DNA of 64,000 nt from Salvelinus alpinus. Lineage: Eukaryota; Chordata; Actinopteri; Salmoniformes; Salmonidae. The first letter of the stretch is position 1. Every line of letters starts with the position of its first letter. Location: contig NC_092094.1 of NCBI RefSeq assembly GCF_045679555.1, positions 38,227,430 to 38,291,429 of the forward strand, in the 5' to 3' direction. This document shows positions 18,601-45,600 of this stretch, in pieces. The translations under genes and the position numbers were made by a program. The notes under the pieces are model-generated. The model saw only the letters and a list, made by a program, of their open reading frames with translations. It was not told the DNA's origin and made no database searches.

Positions 18601-21600
18601 TGGAGGCGCGCTGTGTTAAGAAGCAGTGCGGCTTGGTTGGGTTGTGCTTCGGAGGACGCATGGCTTTCGACCTTCGTCTCTCGAAGGCTACAACTCGAGC
18701 CCGTACGGGAGTTGTAGCGATGAGACAAGATAGTAATTACTAGCGATTGGATACCACGAAAATTGGGGAGAAAATGTGATTTAAAAAAACATGTTCATTA
18801 CACGGTTCATAAGCAGTTCATAATATGGTCATAACACTGTCATGACCAATATTTTCACCTGAAGTTTCCATTCGTTAAAGTTTCTCAAGTCCCTTGTTTT
18901 TGTTGTAATGAATTCTTCAGTCATGTTTTTTTTCAGTATATTTTTTTTATAACTTGTAGAAAATACACTTTAAAACACTGTCATGAAGCATTATGATCAT
19001 TCTGTGTCACTTTACTTGGATTAAGAAAATACACTTTGACACTCAAGACACACTATGACCACCATAATCATATACGGAAGATAGGCCTATCACATTTAAC
19101 ATTTAACATTTAAGTCATTTAGCAGACGCTCTTATCCAGAGCGACTTACAAATTGGAAAGTTCATACATATTCATCCTGGTCCCCCCGTGGGGAATGAAC
19201 CCACAACCCTGGCGTTGCAAGCGCCATGCTCTACCAACTGAGCCACACGGGACCGTAACGGGATTGTATCACGTACAATCCCTTATATCAGTCAAAAAGA
19301 GGGTGTTTTGTCCTGCAATCTGCTCCTGCATTCATCCCTGTCATCAGCAACAGGGCACTGGGGTAGGTGCATGTCTGACATCAATGTGTGTGCAATTACA
19401 ATGAGCATTTAACATGCTCAATAAATAAAACAGTGTGTGGTAGGTTTTGACACTCTTATGTAGGTGTCATAACCAGCCATAAAATCAAGCAATATATACA
19501 TCAGGTGTAAATATACTGTGTGTCATGACAGTGTTATGGTCATATTATAACATGACGCTGGTGTTAACTTCTCTAGGGGGTGTGGGACAGTAGCGTCCCA
19601 CCTGGCCAACATCTGGTGAAATTGCAGAGCGCCAAATACAAATAAAATTACTATAAATATTTAACTTTCATGAAATCACAAGTGTAGTACATCAAAATAA
19701 AGCTTAGCTTGTTGTTAATCCAGCCGCCGTGTCAGATTTCAAAAAGGCTGTACGGCAAAAGCAAACCATGCGATTATCTGACCGCTCAGCACACAAAACA
19801 TTACATACAGTTACCGGCCAAGTAGATTAGTCACGAAAGTCAGAAATAGCAATAAAATGAAACACTTACCTTTGATCTTCGTATGGTTGCACTCACAAGA
19901 CTCCCAGTTACACAATAATGTTTGTTTTGTTTGATAAAGTCCCTCTTTTATATCCAAAAACCTCAATTTTGTTGGCGCGTTTTGTTCAGTAATCCAATAG
20001 TTCAAATGCGGTCACAACGGGCAGACAAATTCCAAATAGTGTCCTTAAAGTTTGTAGAAACATGTCAAACGATGTTTATAATCAATCCTCAGGTTGTTTT
20101 TAGCCTAAATAATCGATAATATTTCAACCGGACAATAGCGTCGTCAATATAAAAGAAAAACAAGAAAAAAGCGCTCTGGGGACATCCCACTATCCACTCA
20201 TTCAATGTTGTCATTCTCCCTAACATTTCCGAAAACTTAATCGGCCCTAATTAATCGGCCATTATTTTAACAGTTTTAGAAACTTTGGGGTGTTTGCTAT
20301 CCAAATCTACTAATTATATGCATATCCTAGCTTCTGGGCCTGAGTAGCAGGCAGTTTACTTTGGGCACGCTTTTCATCTGGAGGTGAAAATAGTGCCCCC
20401 TACTAGAGGTCGACCGATTATGATTTTTCAACGCCGATACAGATTATTGGGGGACCAAAAAAGCCGATAACGATTAATCGGACGATTTTATTTATTTATA
20501 TATATAATTTATTTTATTATTACCCTAGTGAGGTTAAGTAAAGTGTTATTGAGCAATTCCTCAAGCAAGACTTTTGCCAGGACTGTCTGGGAGTGGTCTG
20601 AGTGGGGAGGGGAAAACTGTTTTTGGCAGAGAGGTATGGAACTCTTTCTTATTGGTCTATTAACTATGCTGAACAAAAATATAAACGCAACATGTAAAAT
20701 GGTCTGAAATAAAATAAATGCTCCATATGCACAACGTTTATTTCTCAATGTTGTGCACAAATTTGTTTACATCCCTGTTAGTGAGCATTTCTCCTTTGCC
20801 AAGATAATCCATTCACCTGGTTAAAAGATCATTATGCCGGCGCTGGGGACAAACATGACAACAGCCCCATGTCGCAAGGATCTGTACACAATTCCTGGAA
20901 GCTGAAATTGTCCCAGTTCACACAGATACAAACCTGCTCCATGCTGAAGCTCTTCCACCAGAAAGGATATTTGAAAAGATGAGCCTGCACTTAGCCTCTG
21001 CCCAGACTTTCAACAACATTGTCTTTCGTCATGATTCATCCAGTTGTAGCAATACATTTTCCTGCTATAGCCCAATGGTCGTTTTAGCCGGTTTAAAATT
21101 ATTATAATATATTTTTGGGGGGGGCCAATAGTAGGCGATAACATCGTATATCGCAGTGTTTTATGGATACATAATCACGATAGGCCCAATGTTGACATCG
21201 CCCAATCCTAGTGTGAAGTAGATGCAAGTTTTCTGTGTGTGGTTGAACAGCTCTTATTTTAAATTTGAGACATTTGTGCTTTTGATCCCCAGACTATATT
21301 GTGGTGGGCAGTGACTCAGGCCGCATCGTGATCCTTGAGTACCACCCCTCCAAGAACATGTTCGAGAAGATCCACCAGGAGACCTTTGGCAAGAGTGGAT
21401 GTCGTCGCATCGTCCCTGGACAGTTCCTCGCCGTCGACCCCAAGGGCAGAGCAGTCATGATAGGTAAAGAGCTCAGAGAACTGAGAGATATGATGTTGTG
21501 GAGAGAGTTGGTAATGGTTTGAAAATTGAACAAAATTTCAAGTTGACAAATCCTTGGCTTGATGAGAGAATCCCCTGTTGCAATGGACATGTTTTTTGTC

Positions 21601-24600
21601 TGTTGTAGTTTGCTAATTACCTCTGTGTTTCCAGGTGTTGTAGTTTACTAATTACCTCTGTTTTCAGGTGCCATTGAGAAGCAGAAGCTGGTGTACATCC
21701 TGAACAGAGATGCAGCAGCGCGTCTCACCATCTCCTCTCCCCTGGAGGCTCACAAGGCCAACACACTGGTCTACCATGTGGTAGGAGTTGATGTGGGCTT
21801 TGAAAACCCCATGTTCGCCTGTCTGGAGATGGACTATGAGGTGAGAGCCTAGCACTGGCCGCTATGATTTGTGAATTTGCTCATGCGCTCTTGTTACGTA
21901 CTAAAGAAACTTACCTAATCTATGTTTACACACAGGCTCCGATGTGCTTCTGTTTTATTCTCTATACACCCAAGTGCTGTTGAAATGATGAGTCTTCATG
22001 TCTCTTCTCTGACAAACCACTGTAGGGAGCTTAAACACTTCTGATTCCAACATAATCCCACTGTTGTAGCTCCTTTGCTACTAAAGATGTTCTGTAAATT
22101 CTCATCCTGTCCTCTTCATTTCCACTGACCCACGGTGTGTGGCCTATGACCTCTCCCTCCTTCCAGGAAGCTGACAATGACCCCACTGGCGAGGCTGCAG
22201 CCAACACACAGCAAACCCTGACCTTCTATGAGCTGGACCTGGGTCTGAACCACGTTGTGCGCAAGTACAGCGAGGCCCTGGAGGAGCACGGCAACTTCCT
22301 CATTACAGGTAGCTACACTGAACAATAATGTAAACGCAACATGCAGCATTTTTTTTTTACCAAGTTACAGTTCATATGTGACCGACCAGCTCGATTTGGT
22401 CCTATATAGCGGGGGGGGGGGAAATTACATTGGATATAAGAGACTCGGTCCTCGAAAATAGTATATCACACACTACAGTTGAGGAACAAGGGAAAGTAAT
22501 CCTGGTTTGAAAGTTGATTAACTTGTAACCTCACTTTTGATAAAATGACCCTTGAATGTTTTGGTACACCTACTGGGGGGCTCTTTGTCTACACCTATTC
22601 AGTATCGTTCACACCCTCTAAAGCCTTAGCCCCACCCATCTCTTTAAGGATTCACATATGAGGCCGTGTACTAAACAACCAAAGATTTCAAAACTAAAGG
22701 CTGGTTTATACTACAGGTGTGTTTGTAAATTTGATCTGGAGTGCCAGAGTGTGCTCAGGGTGGGCTCTAGGCGTTCATAAACTCAGAGCGTTGTCAGTTT
22801 ATCAGTTTGTAAATTCAGAGCGTTTCGCTCTCCCGAGTGTTCAGAGCGCACACTGGACGCTCTGGCCGAGGAGTAGGGTTGATCTGAGCATTCTGACCAG
22901 TCAAGAACCCAAGCTAACTGGCTAATATTGGCAAGTTTGCTAGCTACTTCCAGACAAAACTCTCTAGAAAGGCAGGAACCTAGGAAGAAACCTAGAGAGG
23001 AACCAGGCTCTGAGGGGTGGCCAGTCTTCTTCTGGCTGTGTCGGGAGGAGATTATAACAGTACATGGCCAAGATGTTCATAGATGACCAGCAGGGTCAAA
23101 TAATAGTCCTGAGGCATGGTTTTAGAGCTGAGAGAGAGCTTAAATTCACACAGGACAGGAGAAAAATTCCAGATATAACAGATTGACCCTAGCCCCCCAA
23201 CACAAACTACTGCAGCATAATTACAGGAGGCGTCGGGAGACACTGTGACTCCGTCCGACTATAACCCCGGACAGGGCCAACCAGGCAGGATATAACCCTA
23301 ACTACTTTGCCAAAGCACAGCCCCCACACCACTAGAGGGATATCTTCAACCACCAACTTACTACCCTGAGACAAGGCTGAGTATACCCCACGAAGATCTC
23401 CCCCACTGCATGAACCCGAATGGGGTGCCAATCCGGACAGGAAGATCACGTCAGTGACTCAACCCACTCAAGTGACGCACCCTTCCTAGGGACGGCATGG
23501 AAGAGCACCCGTAAGCCAGTGACTCAGCCCCCATAATAGGGTTAGAGGCAGAGAATCCCAGTGGAGAGAGGGGAACCGGCCAGGCAGAGACAGCAAGGGC
23601 GGTTCGTTGCTCCAGAGCCTTTCCGTTCACCTTCACACTCCTGGACCAGACTACACAGTCTTCAGTAAAGACTTAAAAGTTGAGACCGAGTCTGCGTCTC
23701 TCACATGGGTAGGCAGACCATTCCATAAAAATGGAGATCTATAGGAGAAAGCCCTGCCTCCAGCGGTTCGTCTTGTCTGACCTCAGATAATTATCTGGTT
23801 TTCATTCTTTTGTCCATGCTCATTGCGGTACACACAGTAACACAAAACAGGAGAATGAGTCATTTTCTCTATTCAACCTGGTTGAATATGTGATTTTTAT
23901 ACTGCATGCACCTTCAACTCACAACAGGTGAGTTCAATTCCAAAGTAAATGATAATCACCTGCTTGAAATCTAACTACTTCTAGACGGTGCCAATAATAT
24001 TGTCTGGGCCATTTTAGGATTTCTTTGTGGAATTAGCTCAGATTTAGTAAATTATTCAGATTGGTTTGTTTTGTACAACTGCATACCGAAGACATACATA
24101 TGTGGATACCAAAATATGTTTTCATTTCAACCGTTTTCTGGAAGAAATTGTGCATTATTTGAAAAAAGTGCAAGGGTTCATTATTTTTGGCCATGACTGT
24201 ATATAATAATTAAAGTAAAATAACAACAGCAAGACTATATACAGGGGGTACCGGTACAGAGTCAATGTGCAGGGGCACAGGTTAGTTAAGGTAATATGTA
24301 CATGTAGGGCTCCTACATGGTCTAAGGCACTGCATCTCAGTGCTAGAGGTATCACTACAGACACCCTGGTTTGATTGCAGGCTGTATCACAACTGACTGA
24401 GATTGGGAGTCCCTTAGGGCGGCGCACAATTGGCCCAGCCTCGTCTGGGTTTGGCCGTCATTGTAAATAAGAATTTGTTCTTAACTGACTTGCCTAGTTA
24501 AGTATAATGTAGGTAGAGTTAAAGTGACTATGCATAGATAATAAACAGAAGCAGCAGCGTGAAAGAGGGGGGGGGGGGGGCAATGCAAATAGTCTGGGTA

Positions 24601-27600
24601 GCCATTTGATTAGCTCTTCAGGAGTCTTATGTCTTGGGGGTAGAAGCTGTTAAGAAACCTTTGGACCTAGACGTGGCGCTCCGGTACAGCTTGCCGTGTG
24701 GTAGCAGAGAGAACAGTCTATGACTAGGGAGGCTGGTGTCTTTGACAATTTTTAGGGCCTTCCTTTGACACCGCCTGGTATAGAGGTCCTGGATGGCAGG
24801 AAGCTTGGCCCCAGTGATGTACTGGGCCCTACGCACTACCCTCTGTAGTGCCTACTAGCAGTTGCTATACCAGGCAGTGATGCAACCAGTCAGGATGCTC
24901 TCGATGGTGCAGCTGTAGAACTTATTGAGGATCTGAGGACCCATGCCAAATCTTTTCAGTCTCCTGAGGGGAAATAGGCTTTGTCGTGCCCTCAGCAATA
25001 GGTCAGTTATTCTGCGCTTTGGCACACTCGGAGGTGAGTGCTCTGAAATCGTATTAGATAGCCAGAGCGAATTGACCAGCTACGTCTATCGACAGTTGTC
25101 GCAGTGACATGAACATTCTATTGAAATGCATACTTGCATAGTGTTTAGACATGTAGCTAGCTAGCTAAACAATGAACCATAATCCCAACTCATAACGTTA
25201 CTACCCTGCAAGAATCTGCAGGGAGCTAACCAACCAGGTTCAATGTTAGCTAGCTAACATTAGGCTATAACTAACAATGCAACTATAACTAACAACGGCT
25301 CTGAGATACAAGTGATATTACTACTCGGATCATACATGTAAAGTTAGCGAGCCGGCCAGCTAACGCTAGCTAGCTAACAGTACACTAACTTGACATGAAA
25401 ACAACCTTCTGACTAAATTAGAAACGTATAATATCTGAAAATGTAGCTAGCTAGACTCTTACCTGTATACATGGATGGACACTTCTCCCTCTGTGTCACG
25501 GATTCCATGGTTGCCCTTAGTTTGAAGATGTAATCCGGAGAAAGGTGTTTTATACAACCGAATTCTGGGTGTTCTCTTTTCGACTTTGCAATCAAATGCC
25601 AGAATTTTCTCCATCTCCTTAGCTATCATACTCTAATTCCACTGATTTCAATACTCGGTCCAATAGAACGTGTAGTTCTACTACGTGATATCTTTAAAAA
25701 AAATCCTTGTTAGAAAGGATTACATACACATACTGACCAGCTCATGTTATAGACAGAAGCATGCTACATGGCAGACCAATCCATAATCATCTCTCGGCAT
25801 GTCCAGTCCATTCATTATCTCAGCCAATCATGGCTAGCGGGAAGGTTGCTGCTCTTCCATGGCTAAACCAACTTGGCTCGTAATTTAACATTTGTATTCC
25901 TATTTACAAATGACATACAAGTTTGTTATTAAGGCACATGAAAGTTCACATGTTCCAGAAGGCATTTCTGCCAAAAAACGCATTTGGATAAATAAAAAGT
26001 TTGTTTTCCTGTGAAGTAGTGTTGCGCGACATACACCTTGTTTCCTGAAACGAGTCGCATGTATAAGGAAATCAGTCAATTGAAATATATTAATTGGCTG
26101 TGCGAAGTTGCTGGATATTGGTGGGAACTGGAACACGCTGTCGTACACGTAAATCCAGAGCATCCCATACATGCTCAATGGGTGACATGTCTGAGTATGC
26201 AGGCCATGGAAAAACTGGGACATTTTCAGCATCCAGGAATTGTGTACAGATCCTTGCAACATGGGGCCGTGCATTATCATGAGGTGATGGCAGCGGCTAG
26301 ATGGCACGACATTGGGCTTGAGGGTCTTGTCACGGTATATCTGTGCATTCAAATTGCCATCGATAAAATGCAATTGTGTTTGTTGTCCATAGCTTGTGCC
26401 TGCCCATACCATAACCCCACCGCCACCATGGGGCACTCTGTTCACAACTTTGACATCAGCAAACCGCTCGCCTACATGACGCCATACACACTGTCCTGCC
26501 TTGTGCCTGGTACAGTTGAAACCAGGATTCATCCGTGAAGAGCACACTTCTTCAGCGTGCCAGTGGCCGTTAAAGGTGAGCATTAGCCCACTGCAGTGGA
26601 TTACGACTCCGAAAGAACCTGGTGAGGACGACGACCACGCAGATGAGCTTCCCTGAGACGGTTTCTATCAGCTGTCATGGTGGCTGGTCTCAGACGATCC
26701 CGCAGAGGAAGAAGCTGGATGTGGTGGTCCTGGGCTGGCGTAGTTACACGTGGTCTGCGGTTATGCGGCCCGTTGAACGTATACTGACAAATTCTGTACA
26801 ACAGCTTTAGAGGCGACTTATGGTAGAGAAATGTACTTATGGTTGAGAAATGATCTGGCAACCGCTCTGGTGGACGTTCATGCAGTCAGAATGCCAATTG
26901 CACGCTCCCGCAACTTGAAACATCTGTGGCGTTGTGACAAAACTGCACATTTTAGTGGCCTTTAATTGTTCCCAGCATAAGGTGCACCTGTGTAATGATC
27001 GTGCTGTTTAATCAGCTTCTTGATATGCCACACCTGTCAGGTGGATGGATTATAATTTGTGCACAATTTCTGGGATCTTTTATTTCTGCTCATGAAACCT
27101 GGGACCAACACTTTAGATGTTGCATTTATATTTTTGTTCAGTGTACATTATTTCCAGTAGAGGGCAGTCAGAGCCAGGTTATGAGTTGTTTGCAGGCTGG
27201 ATTATTTTTTTAAATGTTTTAATTTAGGTGTAAACCTATTGTGTGATTATTACCCTTTCCCCCTCTCTTTTCCAGTTCCTGGAGGCTCTGATGGGCCCAG
27301 TGGAGTACTCATCTGTTCAGAGAATTACATCACCTACAAAAACTTTGGGGACCAGCCTGACATTCGCTGTCCCATCCCACGCAGGAGGGTGAGTTTCTGT
27401 TATGTTTTATAAATGCGAAAACGGATTTCAAATAACTTGGCTAACAAGACATGGTCGTACATGTTAACAGTTTGAATGTTTGTGTGGATCACAGTTGATT
27501 TGATACCATCTGCACTGAACCCTCAATTCTTTTTTCTTTTGCCTGAACACAGAATGACCTGGATGACCCTGAGCGAGGCATGATCTTCGTCTGCTCAGCC

Positions 27601-30600
27601 ACCCACAAGACCAAGTCCATGTTCTTCTTCCTGGCCCAGACGGAGCAGGGCGACATTTTCAAGGTCACCCTGGAGACAGATGAGGAGATGGTGAGGCCAG
27701 CAGGGTGCAGTCTGAGACAGGAACTGGGGGAGGGGGGGCAGAGGTGTTCATCTGATGTGTGGGAAATAGAACCATGCTGTTGAGGTGATGAGTCTTCATG
27801 TCTCTTCTCTGACAAAAACATGGAGAGAGCATAAACACCTCTGATCTCAGCATGCACACACACTAACTCGGGTCAGTGTTCACATGATGGGATATTCTGT
27901 GATTCCTTCTATTTCAAATAAACGTTTGTATCCCCCAGGTTACAGAGATCAGGATGAAGTACTTTGACACCATACCTGTAGCCACATCTATGTGCGTGCT
28001 GAAGACCGGCTTCTTATTTGTGTCCTCAGAGTTTGGTAACCAGTAAGTCATTCATTATACTGTAATACCTCACACATCCCATCTATGTCCATGCCTCTTG
28101 CTCTCTTGTGTTCATTGTCTTCTCTCTCTCTCTCTGCTAGTTACCTGTACCAGATAGCCCATCTGGGAGATGATGATGAAGAGCCAGAGTTCTCCTCTGC
28201 CATGCCCCTGGAGGAGGGAGATACCTTCTTCTTCCAGCCACGCCCCCTCAAGAACCTAGTGCTGGTGGATGAGCAGGAGAACCTCTCCCCCATCATGTCC
28301 TGCCAGGTGTGTGTGAATCTCTTTCTGTTGTATGTTTGTTGTGCGTGCAACGGTTTTAGCTTTTGATTCCCATGGATTGTGTAGTGGATGAACTTAGTGT
28401 GCCACACCTTTCCCTTTGTTCTACTGAACCAAATTGTAACATCTTTAGCTGGGGTAGGTGTGTTTTCCCACTATTTTTAGCACAATGAACCTGATTTTGA
28501 CTTTACTTGAATGCGAGTTAGTTGGAGTACCAAGATTATATTCTTTTTTTCACATTTTTATAAGTAGGATTCACGTTAACCCCCTGTCCCCCCCCACACA
28601 CACACACACACACACAGATTCTTCTGAAGTCTTTCGGCAAGGTTTGAGGAGAAGTTGTGCTGTTGAAGTGATGAGTTTCTCATGTCTCTTCTGACTAAAT
28701 ATTGTTAGGTTCTAATTATCAGAGTAAGAACTCAACAGACGCTATGAAAGCTTAGACCAAGTTTATTCTTCTCAAAGGATCGAACAGTTGACCCGACAAA
28801 GACATGATTAGAATAGTGGTGGTATATGTACCCCACTGTGGGTGGAGTCTCCTCCTTGCTAAACATTGCATCTTTTTTTGCTAGGCAGGAAACTAAGTGA
28901 TTGGGGTAATAAACTGTTCCTTTTCCCTTAGTGACCTGTCCTCGACCCCCTTATCCACGCCTCTCCCCTTATCAGTACTGCCACGTGACCATTTTCCCTG
29001 CTCTCAGCCCCTCCCAAGCTTAATTGCACCCACCATAACCCTTCCTCCGACAGACAACTCCTGGTGTAAATCCTGGGCTACGGCACCCCTCATGTCTCTA
29101 TTAGAACAAATAAATCATAATAGTTAAAGCTCACAAATCCAAACCTATCAATGGAGAGAGTTTAAACACCTCTGATCTCAGCGTTAGAACGTGACACAGA
29201 CACCACATGTGAGACTACCTTGTTTACTTCTGGAGCTGTACTACTTGTTAAGTTCTGTCCTCTTAGAATACATACGGATCTCTTACTCACCACTGGCTCA
29301 TTGTTCCACTCACCTCATCTGTTTCTCTCTCCCTGTGTAGATTGCTGATCTGGCTAATGAGGACACTCCTCAGCTGTATGTGGCCTGTGGCAGGGGACCC
29401 AAATCCACCCTCCGAGTCCTCAGACATGGGCTGGAGGTATGTGTACTGCAATTCCACCTCCCATCGCACATTCACATCCCAGAAAGTGCTCATGCACACA
29501 TTCTCTCGGTGTGGCACATGCCACAGTATTATTTGAACAATGACAACATTTTAACAAAATCATGCGGATACTCACTCACATGCACACTGGAAACCAGAGT
29601 TGGGACAGAGTTTGGGTTTTAAGTTTCTGGCGCTGTTGCTTTTCTCACACACCAGTTAATGTTTGACGTGTTTAAGAAGCTGGATGAAATGATATACATG
29701 TCTTCTCTGACAAAGCACCAGAGAGAGAATGTGTGTATACCTCTGATCTCAGCAGATCTCAACCTGTTAATGCAGAGGTAACAGACTGGTAAATGCTTAG
29801 GTTAGATTACAATGAAAGTCTGATCAGTGATTGTTCCCTCCAGGTATCAGAGATGGCTGTGTCTGAGCTGCCCGGTAACCCCAATGCTGTGTGGACTGTG
29901 CGCCGACACATTGAAGGTGCTTGTTCTTTATTTTTAACTAGTTGCAAGTTATTCTCCCTTCTACCTCATTACAGTCCACTTCTGCAGTATTTGGTTGCAG
30001 TTATTGTGTAGGACATGGTTGTAAAGTGGCATTGTTTTAATCTTAATACTGTCAGGTCTCATGTTGTAGACTGGCATCAGAGTGCATTCTTGAAAAAAGT
30101 CACTCAGCCAGACTATTCCCAGAAGTCATGTGATTTCAGAGATTTTTCCTGACGTGGTATAGTGCAGTGGCCTAGTTCCACTGCAGCTGCCTGGTAGAGA
30201 GACCTGTTCAGGCGTGGCTTCACTTTCACTCTAGCATTCATCCATTACACAGAAGACTTGGCTCATCCAGCTGTTTAGCCTGCACAAGTCAGACATTGTA
30301 ACTTCTACACACTGGGTTACAGACGTAGATTTCAAGATTGTGATGCCATACTCTAGGTTAGTGAAAAACCAAAATAAGGGTATGAGATTGATTGTAAATC
30401 ATGTACCAGATTAGGGCACATTCCTCTGAAGTCTCATGGCAGGGTTTGTTGTGCTGTTGAAGTGATGAGTTTGTCATGTCTCTTCTCTGACAGAAATATC
30501 AATGGAGAGAGTTTAAAACACCTCTGATCTCAGCATTATACATACTTTGTGAATAAATAAACTCAGCAAAAAAAGAAATGTCCCTTTTTCAGGTCCCTGT

Positions 30601-33600
30601 CTTTCAAAGATAATTCGTAAAAATCAAAATAAGTTCACAGATCTTCATTGTAAAGGGTTTAAACACTGTTTCCCATGCTTGTTCAATGAACCATAAACAA
30701 TTAATGAACATGCACCTGTGGAACGGTTGTTAAGACACTAACAGCTTACAGGCGTAGGCAATTAAGGTCACAGTTATGAAAACTTAGGACACTAAACAGG
30801 CCTTTCTACTGACTCTGAAAAACACCAAAGAAAGATGCACAGGGTCCCTGTTCATCTGCGTGAACGTGCCTTAGGCATGCTGCAAGGAGGCATGAGGACT
30901 GCAGATGTGGCCAGGGCAATATGTCCGTACTGTGAGACGCCTAAGACAGCGCTACAGGTAGACAGGACCGACAGGTGATCGTCCTCACAATGGCAGACCA
31001 CATGTAACAACACCTGCACGGGATCGGTACACCCGAGCACCACACCTGCGGGACAGGTACAGGATGGCAACAACAATTTCCTGAGTTACACCAGGAACAC
31101 ACAATCCCACCATCAGTGCTCAGACTGTACGCAATAGGCTGAGAGAGGCTGGACTGAGGGCTTGTAAGCCTGTTGTAAGGCAGGTCCTCACTAGACATCA
31201 CCGGCAACAACGTCGCCTATGGACACAAACCCACCGTTGCTGGACCAGACAGGACTGGCAAAAAGGGCTCTTCACTGACGAGTCGCGGTTTTGTCTCACC
31301 AGGGGTGATGGTCAGATTCACGTTTATCATCGAAGGAATGAGCGTTACACCAAGGCCTGTACTCTGGAGCGGGATCGATTTGGAGGTGGAGGGTCCGTCA
31401 TGGTCTGGGGCGGTGAGTCACAGCATCATCGGACTGAGCTTGTTGTCATTGCAGGCAATCTCAACGCTGTGCGTTACAGGGAAGACATCCTCCTCCCTCA
31501 TGTGGTACCCTTCCTGCAGGCTCATCCTGAATCAGCCATGCTGCTCGTTCTGTGCATGATTTCCTGCAAGACAGGAATGTCAGTGTTCTGCCATGGCCAG
31601 CGAAGAGCCCGGATCTCTACGTCTGGGACCTGTTGGATCGGAGGGTGAGGGCTGGGGCCATTCCCCCCCAGAAATGTCCGGGAACTTGCAGGTGCCTTGG
31701 TGTAAGAACTGGCAAATCTGGTGCAGTCCATGAGGAGGAGATGCACTGCAGTACTTAATGCAGCTGGTGGCCACACCAGATACTGCTTTTGATCCCCCCC
31801 CCTTTGTTCAGGGACACATTTAATTTCCGTTAGTCACATGTCTGTGGAACTTGTTCAGTTTGTCTCAGTTGTTGAATCTTGTTATGTTCATACAAATATT
31901 TACACATGTTAAGTTTGCCGAAAATAAACGCAGTTGACAGTGAGAGGCTGTTTCTTTTTTTGTTGAGTTTAAATGTAATTGATGATTGATGAATTGCTTC
32001 ATGTATCAGATTAACACTAAACCATAGGTTTATTGAATAAAAGGAAGGGTCCAGAAGTCCCCTCAGTGTGAAACTCATTTAAACACCTCTCCTCCTCCAG
32101 ATGAGTTTGACGCGTACATCATCGTTTCCTTCGTCAACGCCACCCTGGTTCTGTCTATCGGTGAGACCGTAGAGGAAGTGACAGACTCTGGCTTCCTGGG
32201 GACCACCCCCACCCTCTCCTGCTCTCTGCTGGGGGAGGATGCTCTGGTGCAGGTCAGTCACCCACACTACACACGCCTCTCAGAGTGGCCTGAACATGCA
32301 CCTTATGTTCTGGAGGGAATACAATGCTAATGCTAGAAGTGAAGATGAAGGGAGTTGAAGTGCATGACAGATTTAATATGGCTGTTGAAGTGATGAGTCT
32401 TCATGTCTCTTCTCTGACATTACAATGGAGAGAGTGTAAACAACTCTGATCTCAGATACACAAACATTAGACACCCTGGCCAGGCCCCTTCCCCAGCCCT
32501 GTGTAAACTGAATAACCCTGTTGTACAGGTGTATCCTGATGGGATCCGTCACATCCGTGCTGATAAGCGTGTGAATGAGTGGAAGACTCCAGGGAAGAAG
32601 ACCATTGTGCGCTGTGCAGTCAACCAGAGGCAGGTGGTCATCGCTCTGACCGGAGGAGAGCTGGTCTACTTTGAGATGGACCCTGTGAGTATACTTTCAT
32701 CCCCTGGGTGTCTATTTTCTCAGACCCAGTTTCGTCTGCTTTTTGCAAATATCCAGAAGTCTCTCCTGCTCAGTGTAAAGGTTATATTTCTTCTGACAGT
32801 AAATGTTTATGATAACCTTCCCCTCTGTCTCTCCCCCCAGTCTGGACAGCTGAATGAGTACACAGAGAGGAAGGAGATGTCAGCTGACGTGGTGTGTATG
32901 AGCTTGGCCAATGTCCCCCCTGGTGAGCAGCGCTCCCGTTTCCTGGCGGTGGGGCTGGTGGACAACACCGTCCGCATCATCTCCCTGGACCCCTCGGTAT
33001 GACTCTCACCGTACTCTGTGCAGCCCGTGCGATCTGTTTGTTTGTTTGTCTGTTTAGAATGGGTCTGATTCATACTGACTGCTCTGCGAGTTGGTAACAA
33101 GCACCAGATGTTCTTGGACAATTACAAGGAAACTCATCTAGAGCTCGTTTTCTCTGCTCACGTTTTTTCTTTTTGTTGCAATTCCAGCCAGGGTGAAAAA
33201 AACAAAGTTAACACGGTGCCATTGTGGATATTTGCCCTCTTTTTAACATGCGTTTATCTCAAAGCTGTGTTTGTAGCCACTAACCCCTCTGTGTGTTTGT
33301 GGTGTAGGACTGTCTCCAGCCCCTCAGTATGCAGGCCCTGCCAGCCCAGCCTGAGTCTCTGTGTATAGTGGAGATGGGAGGAGTGGAGAAGGAAGATGAG
33401 CTAGGAGTGAAGGGCACTGTCGGCTTTCTCTACCTCAACATCGGACTGCAGGTAAAATACGCTATGACCAAAAGCTTGACGAACATCTCATTCCAAAATC
33501 ATGGGCATTAATATGGACTTGGTCGCCCTTTGCTGCTGTGACAGCCTCCACTCTTCCGAAAAGGCTTTCCACTAGATGTTGGAACATTGCTGTGTGGACT

Positions 33601-36600
33601 TGCTTCCATTCAGCCACCAGCGTTAGTGAGGTCAGGCACTGATATTGGGAGATTAGGCCTGGCTCGCAGTCATCGTTCCAATTCATCCCAAAGGTGTCCG
33701 ATGGGGTTGAGGTCAGGGCTCTGTGCAGGCCAGTCCCGTTCTTCCACACCAATCTTGACAAACCATTTCTGTATGGACAATGCATGGGTGCATAGTCATG
33801 CTGAAACAGTAAAGGGTCTGTCAGAACAGAAATTACAAGGGTATGTTATAATGCTGTTATTGCATCAAATGGGTGTTTTATGTAACAGAATAAGGGGTTG
33901 TTAGAATGCTCATCTGTGTGTTCTACTGAGGATGGCCCTCTGGGAGATTTACGATGCCTTTGGGTAATACTGCATTCCAGAGCATGAGTTAATGTTTCTG
34001 TGCTGGGGTACCAGGGGGAGATGACTCTGGGGCCAGACCCTGGTCTCTACACAATGAGATACTGTCTGCTGTGAATTATAAGTATCTTTCATACTAATCT
34101 TAACCTTGTGACCCATTCCATTAATCTGTTTGTCATGTAGCCTGAAGGGGGTGAATCTTGGCTATAAAAGACCTTTGTGTTTTTGACTCGGGACTCTGAA
34201 TTGATTCGTTGACCAGCCATTATTAACGTGGAGCACTCAATCGATTCACTTTATATGTGTGTATTGTATTGACCTGCTCCCTTATTAACAAGTGAGTAAA
34301 GATTTAGTTTAAGTATAACTCTGACTTATGTGATAAATTTGTCTCTCATTTGATAGTAAAGAAATTAACCACAAAGTTGGAAGCACAGAATCATCTAGAA
34401 TGCTGTAGCGTTAAGATTTCCCTTCACTGGGACTAAGGGGCCTAGCCCAAACCATGAGAAACAGCCCCAGACCATTATTCCTCCTCCACCAAACTTTACA
34501 GTTGGCACTATGCATTCGGGCAGGTAGTGTTCTCCTTGCAAGATTCGTCCATTGGCCTGCCAGATGGTGAAGCGTGATACATCACTCCAGACAACGCGTT
34601 TCCACTGCTTCAGAGTCCAATGATGGCGAGCTTTACGACACTCCAGCCGACGCTTGGCATTGCGCATGGTAATCTTAGGATTGTGTGCGGCTGCTCGGCC
34701 ATGGAAACCCATTTCATGAAGTTCCTGATTAACAGTTTTTGTGCTGATGTTGCATCAAGAGGCAGTTTGAAACTTAGTAGTGAGTGTTGCAACGGTCCTG
34801 TTTTGTGAGCCTGTGTGGCCTACAAGTCAGCGGCTGAGCGGTTGTTTGTCCTAGACGTTTCCACTTCACAATAACAGTACAGTTGTTCCCGGGGCATCTC
34901 TAGCAGGGCAGAAATTTCACAAACTGACTGGAAAGGTGGCATCCTATAACGTTGCCACGGTGAAAGTCACTGAGCTTTTCAGTAAGGCCATTCTACTGCC
35001 AATGTTTGTCTATGGAGATTGCATGGCTGTGTGCTCGACTTTATACACCTGTCTGCAACAGGTGTTGCCGAATCCATTAATTTGAAGGGGTGTCCACATA
35101 CTTTTGTCTGTATATAGAGTGTATATGTCCTCTGTGTTGAGGAAGAGTTTGAGTAGAGGGATATTGTGGTGCTGTTGAAGTGATGAGTTTCCTCATGTCT
35201 CTTTTCTGACAAATAATGGAGAGAGTTTAAAACATCTCTGATCTCAGCATACAGTATATATATATACACACCTACACTATCTGTTACTGCCTGTTTACTT
35301 CTGCCACTGTATTACTTGATATTTTGTGCTCTGTTGGAATACATACTAGAGCTTTTATTTGTGACGTTAACATGTCTGTCTTTCCTCAGAATGGTGTGTT
35401 GCTCAGGACCGTGCTGGACCCAGTGACTGGAGACCTGTCTGATACTCGTACTCGGTACTTGGGGTCGCGACCTGTGAAGCTCTTCCGCGTCAGGATGCAG
35501 GGACAGGAAGCTGTAAGTGAAATCCTATTAGTTGCTATGTTTTTGCAGCTTTATGGAGCTGAAACATAACATTGAGGCTGTGTGTATTTGTATCCTCTCT
35601 GACATCTCCATCTCCTTCAGGTGTTGGCCATGTCTAGTCGCTCCTGGCTGAGTTATTCCTACCAGTCCCGATTCCATCTGACGCCCCTGTCCTATGAGAC
35701 GCTGGAATATGCCTCTGGCTTTGCCTCTGAACAGTGTCCAGAGGGCATTGTGGCAATCTCCACCAACACCCTGAGGTACACACACACACAGAGAGAACTA
35801 AAGTAAACACATCTATACTGAGTGTACAAAACATTAGGAACACCTGCTCTTTCCATGACAAACTGACCAGGTGAAAGCTATGATCCCCTATTGATGTCAC
35901 TTGTTAAATCCACTTCAATCAGTGTAGATGAAGGGGAGGAGACAGGTCAAAGAAGGATGTTTAAGCCTTGAGACAATTAAGACATGGATTGTGTATGTGT
36001 GTCATTCAAAGGGTGAATGGGCAAGACAAAATATTTAAGTGCCTTTGAATGGGTTATGGTAGTAGGTGCCAGGTGCACTGGTTTGTGTCAAATGGTTTAC
36101 CTCCCAAAGGACATCCAGCCAACTTAACACAACTGTGGGAAGCATTGGAATCAACATCCCTGTGGAACGCTTTTGCCACCTTGTAGAGTCCAGACGAATT
36201 GAGGCTGTTCTGAGGGCAAAATTAGGGCAACTCAATATTAGGGAGGTATCTTTAATGTTTTGTGTGCACTCAGTATCTATTGAGGAAATGTCTTCATTGA
36301 CAAGGCTTGAAAGTAGAGCAGTTATGCTGTTGAAGTGATGAGTCTTCATGTCTCTTCTCTGACAAACCAATGGAGAGAGTGTAAACATCTCTGATCTCAG
36401 CATATACACAGATCACATCTCATTTTCTCTCATTCACCCTCAACCATCCTCATTCTCAATTATAACGCTGATACTTAACTTATGAATTATGTCCCATTTA
36501 CTTTTTGAAATGTTATTTCTGTTCCCATTATGGCTGAGTTGTGGCATGGCACACCTGTTACGTGGTACACATCTTCTGACACTGCTTTTGTCTCCCTCTT

Positions 36601-39600
36601 AGGATTCTGGCCTTGGAGAAGCTGGGTGCCGTGTTCAACCAGGTGGCCTTCCCCCTGCAGTACACACCTCGCAAGTTTGTCATTCACCCAGAGACAAACA
36701 ACCTGATACTCATAGAAACTGATCACAATGCCTACACAGAGGCCACCAAGGCCCAGCGCAAGCAGCAGATGGCAGAGGTATGGTTCTGTTCTGACTGAGA
36801 GGGAGAGAGTGCTGAGGCTATGTGTTGTACACCCAGGCTGTGTAGATTGTGTGGGCTGATATTATGAAAGTGTAGATATAAGATAGGCAAAACTTCAATA
36901 TAAATAATTTACAATTGTTTTTTATAGCACTTTTCTAAAACCCGAAGCGGATTAATTGAAGGCAGGGTTTGAGGCGAGGGGTGTTATGCTGTTGACATGA
37001 TGAGTTTCTCATGTCTCTTCTCTGACAGAATAATGGAGAGAGCTTTAAACATCTCTGATCTCAGCATATATACAGAGATTACACACACAGTGTAGAGATT
37101 GACATGGGGAATTAGGCTAATACTTTGCTTCAATTTATGTCGATATCTCTCACCCCCTCCCTACTTTTCTTTCTCTCTGTTTGTAACTGACGCTGACACC
37201 ACTTCTGTGTTGTTCCCTTCTATAGGAGATGGTTGAGGCAGCTGGTGAGGATGAGAGGGAGCTGGCAGCAGAGATGGCTGCTGCCTTCCTCAATGAGAAC
37301 CTGCCAGAGGCCATCTTTGGGGCGCCCAAGGCCGGGTCTGGCCAGTGGGCCTCTCTGGTGCGTCTGATCAACCCCATCCAGGGAACCACTCTGGACCTTG
37401 TCCAACTGGAGCAGAATGAGGCTGCCTTCAGGTGAGGACAGGATGGATGAGTGGAAAAGAGCTCCCCAGCTTGTAGTTCAAAAAAAAAAAACGAAATGGA
37501 TGAATTCTGTTTCGTTCAGCCATTCCTATGGGAGAAAAAATTGGGTTTTGGGAGAAACGCCAAAATAAGGTCAGATCTTATATGTTTTGTTCTATGAGAT
37601 AATGTTATGGCCCTATAAAATCCGCGCTGCAAAAAAAACACAGAATCACAGAATCCTGACATTTAAATGGAATTCAACAACATACATTTGTTATTGAAGT
37701 TAATAGGAAATCAATTTAGGAGAAAATGTATTAATTAGCCCAAGTTAAACATAAGACGTGAACAAAATGCATCATGAACCATATACGAGTAAAGTCAAAT
37801 TGTCAACAATTTTTTTTATTTGCAACATCTGTGATGGATGCAGTCAAATAATTTGTTTGTTTGATGTGGTGGGATCTTTTGTGTTAAAAAAAAATAATAA
37901 TGTGGGAAATGGCAGTGGACACTCCTTTATGTGCAAATATTGATGTGATAACCATATCAAAGCACATTTGGAGTCATGCGATGATATGTTGTGTGGTCCT
38001 CCCACTACCACTCGGGAAACCATGCAGTTTATTAGGCTACAAATGAATTAAGTTATGATGAACTTTACAGGGTGGTGAAAGTGCACAGTGTCGAGCTTGA
38101 TGCTTCTTTCCCAAAAATATTGAGGGTCTTATTCTGGTGACATGATGATCGATGCTTGGCTGCCGTTTGACACAAAAAAAAAATCTTACTCCTATCCCCG
38201 GTAATCTACATTTGGTATTTTATTAGGATCCCCATTAGCTGTTGCAAAAGCAGCAGCTACTCTTCCTGGGATTCACACAAAACATGGAACATGACATAAT
38301 ACAGAACATTAATAGACAAGAACAGCTCAAGGACAGAACTACATAAATAAAAAATAAAAGGTACACGTAGCCTACATATCAATACCAATACATTAACAAA
38401 CGATCTAGGTCAAATAGGGGAGAGGCGTTGTGCCGTGAGGTGTTGCTTTATCTGTTTTTTGAAACCAGGTTTGCTGTTTATTTTAGCAATATGAGATGGA
38501 ACGGAGTTCCATACAATAATGGCTCTATAATACTGTACGCTTTCTTGAATTTGTTCTGGATTTGGGGACGGTGAAAAGACCCCTGGTGGCATGTCTGGTG
38601 GTGTAAGTGTGTGTCAGAGCTGTATGTAAGTTGTCTATGTAAACAATTTGGGATTTAACACATTAATGTTTCTTATAAAAAGAGACTGGCATGCGAGAGA
38701 CTGGCATGCGTAGTATTTATATCCGCCTTCAGATTACAATGAAGAGCAAGACGTGCCGCTCTGTTCTGGGCCAGTTGTAGCTTAAACTTCTTCGGGATCG
38801 GTCTCCCTTCCACGGAACGGTTGAGCTAATGTAGGCTAATGCGATTAGCATGTGGTTGTAAGTAACAAGAAAATTTCCCAGGACATAGACACATCTGATA
38901 TGGGCAGAAAGCTTAAATTCTTGTTAATGTAACTGCACTGTCCAATTTACAGGAGCTATTACAGTGAAATAATACCATGCTATTGTTTGAGGAGAGTGCA
39001 CAATTTTGAACATGAAAAGTTATTAATAAACAAATGAAGCACATTTGGGCAGTCTTGATACAAAATTTAGAACAGAAATGCAATGGTTCATTTTGCCCAT
39101 GCACTGCTGCCATCTAGTGGTCAAAATCGAAGCTACACCTGGGCTGAAATAATAGATTTTGGCCTTTCTCTTGCATTTCAAAGATGATGGTACAAAAAAA
39201 ATACAAAAGAACGGTTTTCTTTCTTTGTATTATCTTTTACCAGATCTATTGTGTTCTTCTCCTACATTCCTTTCACATTTCTATAAACTTCAAAGTGTTT
39301 CCTTTCAAATGGTACCAAGAATATGCATATCCTTGCTTCTGGGCCTGAGCTACAGGCAGTTAGATTTGGGTATGCCATTGTAGGCGAAAAGGGTTTTAAG
39401 AGGTTTTAACTAGATCTTTCCTTGCAGCACTCGACCACACGACTGGACAATAATCAAGATAAGACAAAACTAGAGCTTGCAGGGCTTGCTTTTTTGAATG
39501 AATAACCTTGTCACGTAGACTAGACAACCCGCACAACCTACCTGCATTGCATCTGCCAGCTGTTGGCTTGAGCGCAGGTGCCAAGGCCAGAGTGGCACAT

Positions 39601-42600
39601 TTTCTATTTAACTGACAAAAATGTGATGAATAAGCATTGAACATTAGATTTTTATTCGGTACATGAACACTTAAGAGAAGGTATGTTTTGTGGGCACTAC
39701 GTCATCACACACTGATTTGTATCCACAAGAAGTTCATTTGGTGGAAATGCGGATTCTATAATATTTGCATGAAAATCACCAATTGGATGGAAACCTAGCT
39801 ACTGATTCATATTTTCCTGGAACTTCCTGAAGCAGCACAGGAATGCCTGTCTCTGTGTGCTGCTGGTAGATGGAAATAATCAATTAAATGTTAACTACAG
39901 ATTTACATTCATGTATTTATGTATGCCTAACTGACAGAATGCATATTTGCATCAATCAAGTGGCAATTTATTTTGAAAACTGCAATCACATGAGCGCTAC
40001 AGAAACGCTGTTAATCAGACAAGGTTTCTGGCTAGTGTACATTTGCATTAAAGGATAACTGCACCCACATTTCTAAATTTCTTAGATTTTTCCCAGACCA
40101 CAAGTGGACTCCTGATGTGGTTAAAGCATTGTACTTAGAACATCCAATTGAGTTGTTTTTCTATTAAACAGGTGTGATTTTGAGAGCCTAAACCTGGGAG
40201 AAACAAAAACCTGGAAAAGCCAAATCGGGGGGGAAAACAAACAGGATCATGCAAAAAAATATATATAACAGATTTTATAAGGCCCTATAATATCAGTCAG
40301 ATGACATGACCTTTATGAATTATGAAGCCTTTGTGCTTTAGGTGCTTGTTTTGATTTACATAAATGTTTCAAAATGTACAAGTGACGTTTGCTGATGAAG
40401 ATCTTACAGAACAAAATGTATAACATCTCCTAAGCCTTTGTTTAACACAAACCTTATTTTCGGTGTTTGTCCCAAAAAAACATGGAGTTCTCCATAGGCT
40501 TTGGCCATCAAGCCATAGCGGAGTTAGCCTGCGTTAGTGCCAACATAAAGACGTTATTGCTCTCTGTAGTGCCACTAGGGAGATGTTATTATTGGCTCTG
40601 CTGGTTTTCCTGTTCAGATTACCAGCTCTTATGCAATTACACAGAGAAAATCTTAACTGTCATTTCAGGCAAGGTTTGAGGAGAGTGAAGTTGTGCTATT
40701 GAAGTGATGAATCTTCATGTCTTCTTCTTGATTTAGTAATAATGGAGAGCGCTTTAAACACCTCTAATCTTAGCATTTAACACAGTTCACACGCAAAAGG
40801 TAGATATTGACACAGGGAATAATACTTATCCCTTCCCGCTCTCCTACTTTCCCTTTGTGTTCTGTCCCTGCAGTGTGACTGTTTGTCGGTTTGCCAGCGG
40901 AGGTGATGACTGGTATGTGCTGGTGGGGGTGGCCCGGGACATGATCCTTAACCCCCGCTCTGTGGGAGGCGGTTTTATCTACACCTATCGGCTGGGAGGG
41001 GGAGGGGACAAACTGGAGTTTATGCACAAGGTGAGTGAGTGACAGAGGATATGACTAATCCAGTGGTTTTCTGGTCTTGTTGACCACAGCTGTGTGCACA
41101 GGAATTCCCCGGCTGTTATTTTTGAATGGTCATAATTGCCATTTGAGAGTCAGAGTACTCTTTCTTGTTTCCACCCCTCCCCTTTACCCAACTCCCTGAG
41201 GGACAATGGTGACTTTGTTGACGCATTCTGACTTTCTGTCCCTTTTCCAGTCTCAGCGGGTCTTATCAGTATTTTAGGCTTTACATTTTTTGTTTAACCA
41301 TTTATCCAGGCAAGTCAACTAAGAACAAATGCTCATTCAAAAAGGTGTGATTTTGAGAGCAAACCCCTGAAAAAAATGGAGGGAAGTGGAAACCTGGAAA
41401 AACACAACAGAGAGAACTGAATTTGAGGGGGGAAACGGAAACAGGCAAAAAAAATAAAAAAAATTAACGGCCCTATAATATGTAACTTAACATTACCTTT
41501 TTGAATTATGAAGCCTTTGTCACCTGTCAAGAACAAGGCCCGTGGTACATTTCTATCCGGCCTTCGTAATGATTTGGGTTGTCAATTAATTTTGGCCAGC
41601 TTCCATGGCCTGCCAGAACAGCGTCAATGCGCCTTGGCATAGATTCTTCAAGTGGACCTAAACCACGCCAGGAAAATGCACCCCACACCATAACATATAC
41701 TTTGTATCCTCGTTTACTGAAGTGTTTCCTTTGTTTTGGCAGTTACCGGTATGTCTACATTCGGGTAGGCCGCAGTTTGGGCAGCATGCGTGTCAAATAT
41801 ACAGCTTGTTGCGTTGTGGCCATAGACACATAATGCATAGAAGGGTTTTGTAACCCTGGCAATTTGACTGTTAAATTGATGGAAACAATAGCAATGGATA
41901 CCAGTCCTGACTTGAATGGGAACTGACATCTAGGGTTGCAAAGGGTCTGACATTTTCAATGGGATGTTAAGCCCTGGAATTTGGGGAATTTTGCTTAAAT
42001 TCATCAAAGTTAGCTTATAACAGTGAACCTTTTTTTGTGGGATACACATAAGGCAATTATAGGTATTGTGGCATATTTTGGTTAAACTATCCCCAATTCA
42101 ATGGAATTGCAACCGTCTGCATGCACAGTGCACTCTTCCATCACATGTACACCTGATTCTCAAGATCTTGCACACTAATGAGATGCTATTGAGCCCACAC
42201 TACTACACTGTCTGAGCCAAGGTCTACATGCTTTCTAGTAAGTTTTGATCTCCTGCAATACTGGGTGGGGTGAATATATTTTATAACATAATTAATTTTT
42301 TGTTAACTAGTAAATAGTAGCCTACAGCAAAGTGTTTAAATAATTTCTAACTTGTTAACAATTTCTGCTAGTTAACTATTTATCTGTACATGGAATCGTT
42401 TTTGGGGCTACAATTTTTTTTCCTAATATTTACAGGAAAATGCCACGGGCACTATCTGATGTGTGGAGGCATTTCACTGCAGCTAATGTAGAAGGAAAAG
42501 CTGTGTACATTTGCAAATACTGTGCCAAATCATATGTGAAGAATGCAACAAAGATGCAGAATCAAATGGCCAAGTACATACATTTCCCTCAGCACTCACA

Positions 42601-45600
42601 ACAAGCAACCTCTGACAAAAGTCCCTCTACTTTTATTCGAGGTGAAAATAATAAATCAGACACCGTATCGATAGCAACAGCTCATGGTCCTCCTGGAATC
42701 AGAAGTTTTGACTCAATGGAGGAACGTAGTCAGAGAAATGCTGATGAATGTCTTGCTCGACCTGTGTATGCAACTGGTTCACCTCTGATGCTCACAGACA
42801 ATGTGTATAAGAAGAGATTTCTGAATGTTCTTCGCCCAGCATACACCCCTCCAACCAGTTATGGTCTATCTACTCATTTGCTGGATGCAGAGTTCAACAG
42901 AGTTCAAACAAATCATAGAGAAAGCAGACTGTATTGCAATCATCTCTGATGGGTGGTCGAATGTTCGCGGGCAAGGAATAATTAACTACATCATTTCCAC
43001 CTCTCAACCAGTATTCTTCAAGAGCACAGACACAAGGGACAACAGACACACTGGTCTCTACATTGCAGATGAGCTGAAGGCAGTCATCAATGACCTTGGT
43101 CCACAGAAGTTATTTGCACTGGTGACAGACAATGCTGTGAACATGAAGGCTGCTTGGTCTAAAGTGGAGGAGTCCTACCCTCATATTACACCCATTAGCT
43201 GTGCTGCTCATGCATTGAATCTGCTACTCAAGGACGTCATGGCACTACAAGAGAGCCAAGGAAATGGTTTGCTATGTGAAGTTAAAGCAGCAATCTACCT
43301 CACCAAGTAAAGTGAGAAGAATAAGAACACCACGTTGAAGCTGCCCAGCAATACCTGTTGGGGTGGTGATGTCATCATGTTTGACAGTCTCATGAAGGGG
43401 AAGGAGTCTCCAAGAAATGGCCATATCACAGTCTGCCGATATGGACAGCCATCAAGAGGATCTCCTGGATGATGTATTTTGGGAGAGAGTGGTAAACAGC
43501 CTGAAACCTATAGCAGTAGCCATTGCACAGATTGAGGGAGACAATGCCATCCTGTCTGAAGTTCAGGCTCTGCTTGCAGATGTAAGAGAAGAAATCCGTA
43601 CTGCCCTGCCCACTTCACTGTTGTTCCAAGCAGAGAAAACTGCAGTTCTGAAATGCATCAAAAGCATGAATACTTCTGCCTAAAGCCCATACACACCACA
43701 GCGTACATGTTGGGCCCCAAGTAAGCTGGCAAGAGCATCCTGTCTGGTGCAGAGATCAACCAGGCCTATGGTGTCATCATTACCGTGTCTCGCCACCTTG
43801 GCCTGGATGAGGGAAAGGTTCTTGGCAGTCTGGCAAAGTACACTTCCAAGCAAGGGCTTTGGGATGGAGATGCAATATTGCAGTCGTGCCAACATATCTC
43901 ATTAGCCACTTTGTGGATCTGAGGCTATTTCCCCTGTTGCCTCCATCATCCTCCAAATCCCACCAACATCAGCCTCCTCAGAGCGCAACTGGTCCTTGTT
44001 TGGGAACACATACACCAAAGCACGCAACAGGCTGACCAATACAAGGGTTGACAAATTGGTGGCCATCTGTGCAAATTTGAGGCGCTTTGAGGCTCAACAA
44101 CAAGCCATTCTCAACAAGGTTGGAACGTGACAGTGAAGATGAGGCCTCAGTCAGATGTTCAAGAGGTGGACATTGAGGAGGTCCAGGGAGAAGACATGGA
44201 AGTCTGAGAGGAAGACAACCAAAGCTTTAATTTCTAGACTATAATTTTACAGATGTATGTTGAAAACGTTTTTGGAAGATGCGATGGATCATTGGATCAT
44301 TCAATATTCCCTTTTGTTGTTCAGTGAAATCATCCCATGTGAAGAGTCAACTCATTTAATTCAAGTTCAAGTCGTAACTAAATCGTTTTTTTATTTCTAT
44401 TGGAAGGATTTAATCATTTGCAATTATGTCTACTTATGATAAGGTAAAATGTTTATGTTTCTGTCCCTATATGATATGGTAAATATATCCAATGCAAAAA
44501 AACATTTAAATGGTATTAATATTAATTTGCATATATTCCTGTGAATTTTCATTAATTCCGACAAAGTTTCCACCCGAGTATTCCCCAAAATGTGCAACCC
44601 TACTGCCATCTATGGATTATATTTCTAATGTTGGTTGCGGCTGTCAGTTTATCCTTGTGCAGATTTACAATCTTGGGAAAAACGTACAGTTGAAAACAAA
44701 TGCCTACTGCAGAAAAGAGAAGACTTATCCATCTGTAGAACCAATGAAAACTATTTTTAGCTAACCGCAGCACCGTTTTTCAAAGTACCTCATCTTGAGA
44801 TAGGCTGTTGCCACGACGAGCGCTTCGGCCATCACCGTGAGTAGCCTATGGCTTCATCATTAGGTGTTTGTGCCACTTGAAATTGTATTTAGTAGCCTAC
44901 TGTAGCCTATGATATATACTGTATATATATTTCTTCGTAATATTGTACAATCTGTGTGTCGCTTTATTGGCCTGGGCTATTGTTTGAATTCAAGACCAGA
45001 TTGATCGCAGTTTGTCAGTCGGCGTAGCCAGTCGTTTGGTCATTTGTGTGGTATTAAAAAAAGATAAAGCTAATGTCTTCTGTCATGGAAATGACGTAGA
45101 ATTACTTAAAATCTGTTTTTAAAAGGCTGAAATTTTTTGGGCCCTGCTAAATTATGTTACCCATGTGTGGAAGTACGAAATAAAAATCTGCTCAACTGTA
45201 GCCTACATTAAATGTAATCTTGGTTGTCAAAAAGTTACTAGATAAAGGATTTACAAGCAGGTATAAATTGACCGCTGAGTCATCTAATTTATGAAACTAC
45301 AGCCGGATGCGCTGCTATTGTGTGTCCTGTTTACCGCACACAGCGGAGGGAAAATGTGCAGACCCATACCACAGTCCTCGCTAGGCTATTAAAAGTTTGC
45401 AGCCTGGCTTCTATTTTTAATGCTTGACAACGAATTACAAAAAAACGAAACCTGCAACAAAACACCATGCGGAGGAGAACCAAGCATGCCTATTACAGCA
45501 ACATTTGAGAAGTAGCCTAGGCTGGCTACTCAACTATAACACATTTTAAGTGCACCATACAGCAATGCTGATTTCAACCGCAGCGGTGAGTCATGCAGTG

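Follow-up and report, generated by a model that had tools for sequence, protein, structure and literature searches.

Small nucleolar RNAs (snoRNAs) of the box C/D family SNORD111 are known from introns of the SF3B3 gene. In human, SNORD111A and SNORD111B both lie in SF3B3 introns and are described as predicted guides for Gm3923 of 28S ribosomal RNA (rRNA), and knockdown of SNORD111B in human cells was reported to lower 28S Gm3923 by 71% (PMC6124571). In chicken, SNORD111 copies occupy SF3B3 introns 3 and 6, with at most four copies of one C/D RNA reported per host (PMC2653536). SF3B3 is described as a recurrent snoRNA host, the fly gene having the most among the species compared, zebrafish included (PMC12309372). 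Drosophila Sf3b3 is the same host gene and is likewise loaded with snoRNAs (six C/D and three H/ACA), but its C/D RNAs are reported to group apart from the expressed vertebrate ones (PMC12309372). Here we show that sf3b3 of the salmonid fish Salvelinus alpinus carries ten copies of a SNORD111-like snoRNA, seven of them with all boxes. The gene lies in a stretch of 64,000 nucleotides (nt), hereafter the window, which is C9:38227430-38291429 (NC_092094.1) of the 2.37-Gb assembly; a second, damaged sf3b3 was taken from C15:28600001-28710000, minus strand, in a search of the genome.

Many copies of one C/D snoRNA are also found in SNORD115 and SNORD116, but to our knowledge these are not spread across the introns of a protein gene, and their arrays sit in non-coding hosts. 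They form 30-50 tandem copies on human chromosome 15, as pointed out in a reply printed with PMC3349704; that paper itself describes C/D copies as fewer in placental mammals, an example being SNORD87, with a single human gene as compared to four in zebrafish and another four in frog. A protein-gene host described in PMC7601244 resembles the present one in having one copy of one snoRNA per intron, but the snoRNA belongs to another class and the copies number six. The closest relatives are human SNORD111 and SNORD111B (HBII-82; RF00611), which share with the fish copies the host gene, the box C/D layout, the D' guide (CATGTCTCTTCTCTGA) and the terminal stem (PMC6124571, PMC2653536). According to these sources SF3B3 has two copies each in human and chicken, whereas the fish gene has ten, seven with all boxes, all below the Rfam gathering score. 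The original prediction, made from the letters of the window, had named human SF3B3 as host of two such snoRNAs and proposed a large expansion specific to this lineage; the human pair is indeed 111A and 111B (PMC6124571), and ten exceeds this pair, the two of chicken (PMC2653536) and the numbers given for Sf3b3 in the species considered in PMC12309372, zebrafish included. In the limited literature compared, no other protein gene reached ten copies of a single C/D RNA. No title or abstract start in the (mostly open-access) literature on SNORD111/SF3B3 and on salmonid and fish snoRNA copies named such an array. The sf3b3 array represents a known guide that has expanded greatly, and no new kind of RNA.

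The coding region of sf3b3 in the window was assembled by GT-AG joining of open frames, and comprises 26 coding exons and 25 coding introns (numbered here between coding exons) for a protein of 1217 amino acids without internal stop. When concatenated, 27 open frames from the window matched an SF3B3 chain of the PDB in 16 ordered stretches. Compared with the Oncorhynchus tshawytscha (chinook salmon) entry, the protein showed one mismatch and a single gap, which falls on a part absent from that entry, and among the matches listed (at least 120) it matched proteins of pike, brown trout, chinook salmon and a whitefish. Ten of the 25 coding introns (4, 7, 9, 10, 11, 12, 15, 17, 18 and 19) bear one snoRNA copy each, as follows.

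15627..53332, forward strand: intact coding region of the host gene sf3b3, from PDB chain matches, GT-AG joins and the chinook comparison.
21974..22054, forward strand: SNORD111 copy of intron 4; C box ATGATGA, guide, D' box CTGA and D box CTGA intact, one C-A mismatch in the stem; partner at the same place on C15.
27774..27854, forward strand: SNORD111 copy of intron 7; intact; partner at the same place on C15.
28657..29186, forward strand: SNORD111 copy of intron 9; split into a 5' part (28657 to about 28704) and a 3' part (about 29143 to 29186) with several hundred nt between.
28679..28689 and 29089-29099, forward strand: CTCATGTCTCT, part of the guide, on both sides of the insert in the intron 9 copy.
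29674..29754, forward strand: SNORD111 copy of intron 10; degenerate, C box AATGATA, guide 2 nt shorter, Rfam score 28.5 bits.
30451..30537, forward strand: SNORD111 copy of intron 11; intact; the corresponding place of C15 has a decayed remnant.
32379..32459, forward strand: SNORD111 copy of intron 12; intact in boxes and guide but with a weakened terminal stem; C15 partner with all boxes.
35169..35251, forward strand: SNORD111 copy of intron 15; all boxes preserved, guide with C changed to T at one position; C15 partner degenerate.
36324..36404, forward strand: SNORD111 copy of intron 17; intact; C15 partner degenerate.
36986..37068, forward strand: SNORD111 copy of intron 18; intact; top Rfam score, 44.8 bits.
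40692..40777, forward strand: SNORD111 copy of intron 19; degenerate, D' box TTGA and D box CTAA, a two-sided change keeping the stem.

C, D' and D boxes were all present in seven copies, and the remaining three (introns 9, 10 and 19) are decaying. The distance from the end of the copy to the 3' splice site is 73-198 nt in nine of the introns and 1563 nt in intron 11. A box test for RUGAUGA, CUGA and CUGA in this order within about 80 nt held for 7/10 copies in the window and for 3/8 on C15. The plain C-D'-D pattern occurred at eight places in the window, exactly seven of which are these copies, the other being an unrelated place at 62526. The number, introns, coordinates and box states given in the original prediction, including its seven copies with intact C, D' and D, thus agree with the sequence and with the gene model. 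The CTCATGTCTCT repeat around the intron 9 insert looks like a target-site duplication, and the insert itself, several hundred nt long (28679-29099), had no other copy across the window.

The Rfam SNORD111 model (RF00611) matched eight of the ten copies at 28.5-44.8 bits, all below the gathering score of 46, with expect values (E) of at most 0.003 for seven of the eight (best 2.7e-5, in 22 kb) and of 0.26 for the intron 10 copy. The intron 9 and intron 19 copies were not matched by this model in the window, and at the gathering score it reported no copy there. The gathering score is a detection threshold and no biological trait. Since every copy falls below it, we call the copies homologous to SNORD111, membership resting on guide, boxes, stem and host. 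A custom covariance model was built from nine copies and run unfiltered over the whole window, the pieces of the intron 9 copy being outside the model. It gave 11 matches with E of at most 2e-5, all within the ten named introns (intron 9 giving two pieces), and the next match had E of 0.31. By this search the copies are all on the sense strand, one per intron, with none elsewhere in the window. Rfam matches, boxes and gene model together bear out the proposed identity as a box C/D snoRNA akin to SNORD111 and hosted by sf3b3.

The guide stretch before D', TCATGTCTCTTC, shows no difference over 12 nt from the guide of human SNORD111B, as deduced from the antisense oligonucleotide of PMC6124571, and the best copies are identical to the Rfam SNORD111 consensus across CAUGUCUCUUCUCUGACA. 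Because the guide equals that of SNORD111B, no new target search was needed and the idea of a new guide target for the copies was dropped. The fifth base before D' is C and would face G, as the original prediction had it. Pairing of the guide with the 28S rRNA of this fish, at the site equivalent to Gm3923, is a prediction. The copies of the window are likely to guide 2'-O-methylation of this one 28S rRNA guanosine (human Gm3923). Methylation at Gm3923 is reported to vary between cell lines and to drop upon depletion of fibrillarin (PMC8393311), so guide supply could matter at this site. Among the seven copies with all boxes, only 1/12 guide columns varied, as compared to 23/54 columns outside the C box, guide, D' and D (Fisher p = 0.043); the guide had been called the most conserved part, which is right but statistically modest in the window.

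Comparison with the second sf3b3 gave a lower limit for the age of the array. In the C15 gene, 23/26 exons were present, in order; exons 10, 11 and 19 were not found within C15:28600001-28710000, and 24.7 kb separate exons 9 and 12. Exons 2, 12, 13, 20 and 22 carry frameshifts and exon 18 a stop, and this gene is a coding pseudogene. Its splice dinucleotides at the retained exons are kept nevertheless (AG at 22/22 acceptors and GT at 22/22 donors, the exon 13 donor lying one base on). The flanks of the two genes showed collinear matches on both sides amid mobile elements, as expected for a large duplicated segment. The original prediction had also suggested counting copies in the duplicate gene, and this count came to eight, against ten in the window. 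Those in C15 introns 4, 7 and 12 kept all boxes, the one in intron 24 has the C box GTGATGT, ending in T, and those in introns 5, 15, 17 and 18/19 are degenerate.

Intron alignments placed copies at the same positions in both genes in introns 4, 7, 12, 15 and 17. The C15 place corresponding to intron 11 holds a decayed remnant of a copy, and one C15 copy matches that of window intron 18 or 19, the assignment being ambiguous. Since copies occupy the same five places in both genes, at least five were present before the two sf3b3 genes separated, and the expansion would predate this separation, which probably is the salmonid genome duplication. A recent burst of copies was ruled out by these common positions. 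The array of ten sf3b3 copies, of which seven have all boxes, is genuine and old. The copies in C15 introns 5 and 24 lack a counterpart that aligns in the window, their flanks aligning over just 52 and 34 nt, and gain and loss are indistinguishable for them. A tree of the copies, poorly supported at 80 nt, set one group apart from the rest (support 89), namely the copies in intron 4 of either gene together with the one in C15 intron 5; hence the latter probably derived from that of intron 4. The intron 7 partners grouped with a support of 49 only. Because the tree is weak, the argument from shared copies rests on positions.

The unit that was duplicated is larger than the snoRNA itself:

36960..37112 (intron 18) and 40667-40820 (intron 19), forward strand: duplicated unit exceeding the snoRNA, 78% identical over 157 nt of homology.

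Homology passing beyond the snoRNA also extends over 133 nt around the copies of introns 15 and 18, and intron 9 has in common with intron 15 a stretch of 133 nt that runs from the intron 9 copy in the direction of the 3' splice site. As the homology extends past the snoRNA, duplication of intron pieces inside the gene is favoured.

Six pairs of copies shared by the two genes were used to examine constraint, with gaps left out. The C box, guide, D' and D differed at 7/155 aligned sites as compared to 53/313 in the spacers (p = 1e-4). When the ambiguous C15 copy was paired with intron 19 instead of intron 18, the counts were 13/155 and 56/316 (p = 0.008). The whole shared snoRNAs were more alike than the flanking intron in 5/6 pairs. 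In 14 of the 18 sf3b3 copies (window introns 9 and 10 and C15 introns 5 and 15 being left out), 95.2% of cells of the terminal stem pair and 4/6 pairs show two-sided changes, which 0/500 shuffles reached, though shared ancestry can inflate this comparison.

The exact 16-mer CATGTCTCTTCTCTGA occurred 13 times in the assembly (six times in the window, four times on C15 inside a span of 42 kb, once on C25 and twice on C28), a count that covers places with the exact 16-mer only, so that copies elsewhere without it would be missed; the reversed pattern, taken as control, occurred three times. One of these places, C28:9813500-9813581, is a further SNORD111-like copy with all boxes, on the sense strand, scoring 97.6 bits and 94% identical to the intron 18 copy. 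It sits between open frames which, when joined, match zebrafish YB-1 across the cold-shock part; the adjoining frames are presumably the C-terminal part of YB-1, a part covered by no PDB chain. Thus, this copy likely lies in an intron of ybx1. As for retroposition of the ybx1 copy, no common stretch of 7-14 nt was found between the 119 nt on either side. The 16-mer places on C25 and at 32.85 Mb of C28 scored 7.2 and 14.9 bits and showed no convincing snoRNA.

We consider that the copies would be redundant, mutually replaceable guides for one 28S site, subject to birth and death, and give this explanation a probability of about 0.75. The tie between guide dosage and the splicing of sf3b3 itself, put forward in the original prediction, is speculative; any intronic snoRNA depends on the splicing of its host. 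As is known for such RNAs, the sf3b3 copies would be released from spliced introns, debranched and trimmed by exonucleases to the C/D core, and fibrillarin would act on the base facing the fifth position before D'. The copies may have spread by duplication of intron pieces within the gene before the two genes split; in the birth-and-death turnover that would have followed, single copies decay and the total supply persists. Several observations weigh against this explanation. Three of the ten copies in the window and four or five of the eight on C15 are damaged, so many may be inert. The guide conservation signal is weak from the window alone (p = 0.043), the intron 12 pair is less alike than its flanks (84.0% and 88.4%), and in the tree of copies window intron 12 groups with window intron 17 (65), away from its C15 partner. 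In addition, all copies score below the Rfam gathering cut-off (44.8 at best, the cut-off being 46).

The damage also lends itself to another account, in which one or a few copies are expressed (for example those of introns 4 and 7, perhaps the ancestral pair) and the rest are neutral duplicates, the number ten having no function. We hold this to be possible but not probable. It would fit the three damaged copies of the window and the three of eight C15 copies that alone keep all boxes. The two chicken copies are three introns apart (introns 3 and 6, PMC2653536), like introns 4 and 7 here, and a large share of annotated snoRNA genes is reported as unexpressed (PMC12309372). Against it, all boxes persist in seven copies in spite of long divergence, key sites have changed less than the spacers, the stem shows two-sided changes across copies, and nine of the ten stay close to the 3' splice site.

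The C15 gene adds a separate possibility. It has no intact frame, and yet 3/8 of its intronic copies have all boxes and the retained exons keep AG and GT. In this it may come to resemble human non-coding hosts of the U17HG type, with snoRNAs in the introns of a gene without protein-coding potential (PMC7601244), but the coding capacity of C15 was lost recently. The two sf3b3 genes diverge by dS (synonymous divergence) of 0.25 and dN (non-synonymous divergence) of 0.020, and of 47 residue differences between them, 45 fall on the C15 side, one on the window side and one could not be assigned. A rough estimate puts the loss of the frame late, within about the last 0.16 of the divergence time at most. 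That C15 sf3b3 might be a snoRNA host gene losing its protein and keeping only the guides in still spliceable introns, with guide dose as the trait kept, is in our view doubtful. Of the leads obtained, the broken gene that still bears three intact guides is the most interesting, but selection is not required to account for these three copies; as the frame loss is too recent, selection on the C15 copies after it is unsupported.

The same timing bears on the suggestion that a high guide dose was itself selected, the array bringing a partly methylated 28S site to higher occupancy and the damaged sf3b3 being kept as an extra source, which we regard as unlikely on the sequences compared. The variability of Gm3923 and its sensitivity to fibrillarin level (PMC8393311) speak for it, as do the C15 splice dinucleotides, kept at 44/44 positions of the 23 retained exons, and the further intact copy in the likely ybx1 intron. 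However, if coding was lost within the last 0.16 of the divergence time at most, as roughly estimated, the 27 key sites of a copy should since have taken up only about half a change (from dN 0.020), and three intact C15 copies need no selection after coding loss.

That the copies have drifted to other targets by way of the region preceding box D is very improbable: this region does differ between copies, but it also departs from the Rfam consensus, while the D' guide is nearly constant. To a transposable element or chance matches as the source of the repeats we give next to no credence, for although the window holds mobile-element remnants and the 12-nt guide with up to two mismatches has 14 matches in it where 7.3 are expected by chance, all copies are on the sense strand, one per intron, and within the window in sf3b3 only, so that this origin was rejected on the family match (E of 2.7e-5 in 22 kb), the whole-window count and the genome distribution of the 16-mer (13 places, of which ten are in the two sf3b3 genes, one in ybx1 and two without a convincing snoRNA).

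Traces of mobile elements were also noted in the window in their own right. In an Rfam scan, a tRNA-like stretch at 19109-19252 (reverse strand) adjoined the 3' element of a UnaL2 long interspersed nuclear element, as in a tRNA-derived short interspersed nuclear element, and a second UnaL2 tail was present at 48336-48389 (reverse strand). The open frames at about 16271-17300, 50408-52050, 61388-62488 and 63297-64000 we take, by resemblance, to be remnants of Tc1-type transposases, and those at 12137-13954 and 42359-44127 presumably are remnants of hAT-type transposases.

In most respects the biology seen here is that of ordinary snoRNAs. What the sf3b3 array offers is a countable and dated example of one guide RNA expanding within its host, and it allows one to ask if guide dose limits methylation at a variable 28S site. 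The C15 gene similarly allows one to ask if snoRNAs keep a host gene transcribed after loss of its protein. If true, the pair formed by C15 and the window would show a coding gene turning into a pure snoRNA host after genome duplication.

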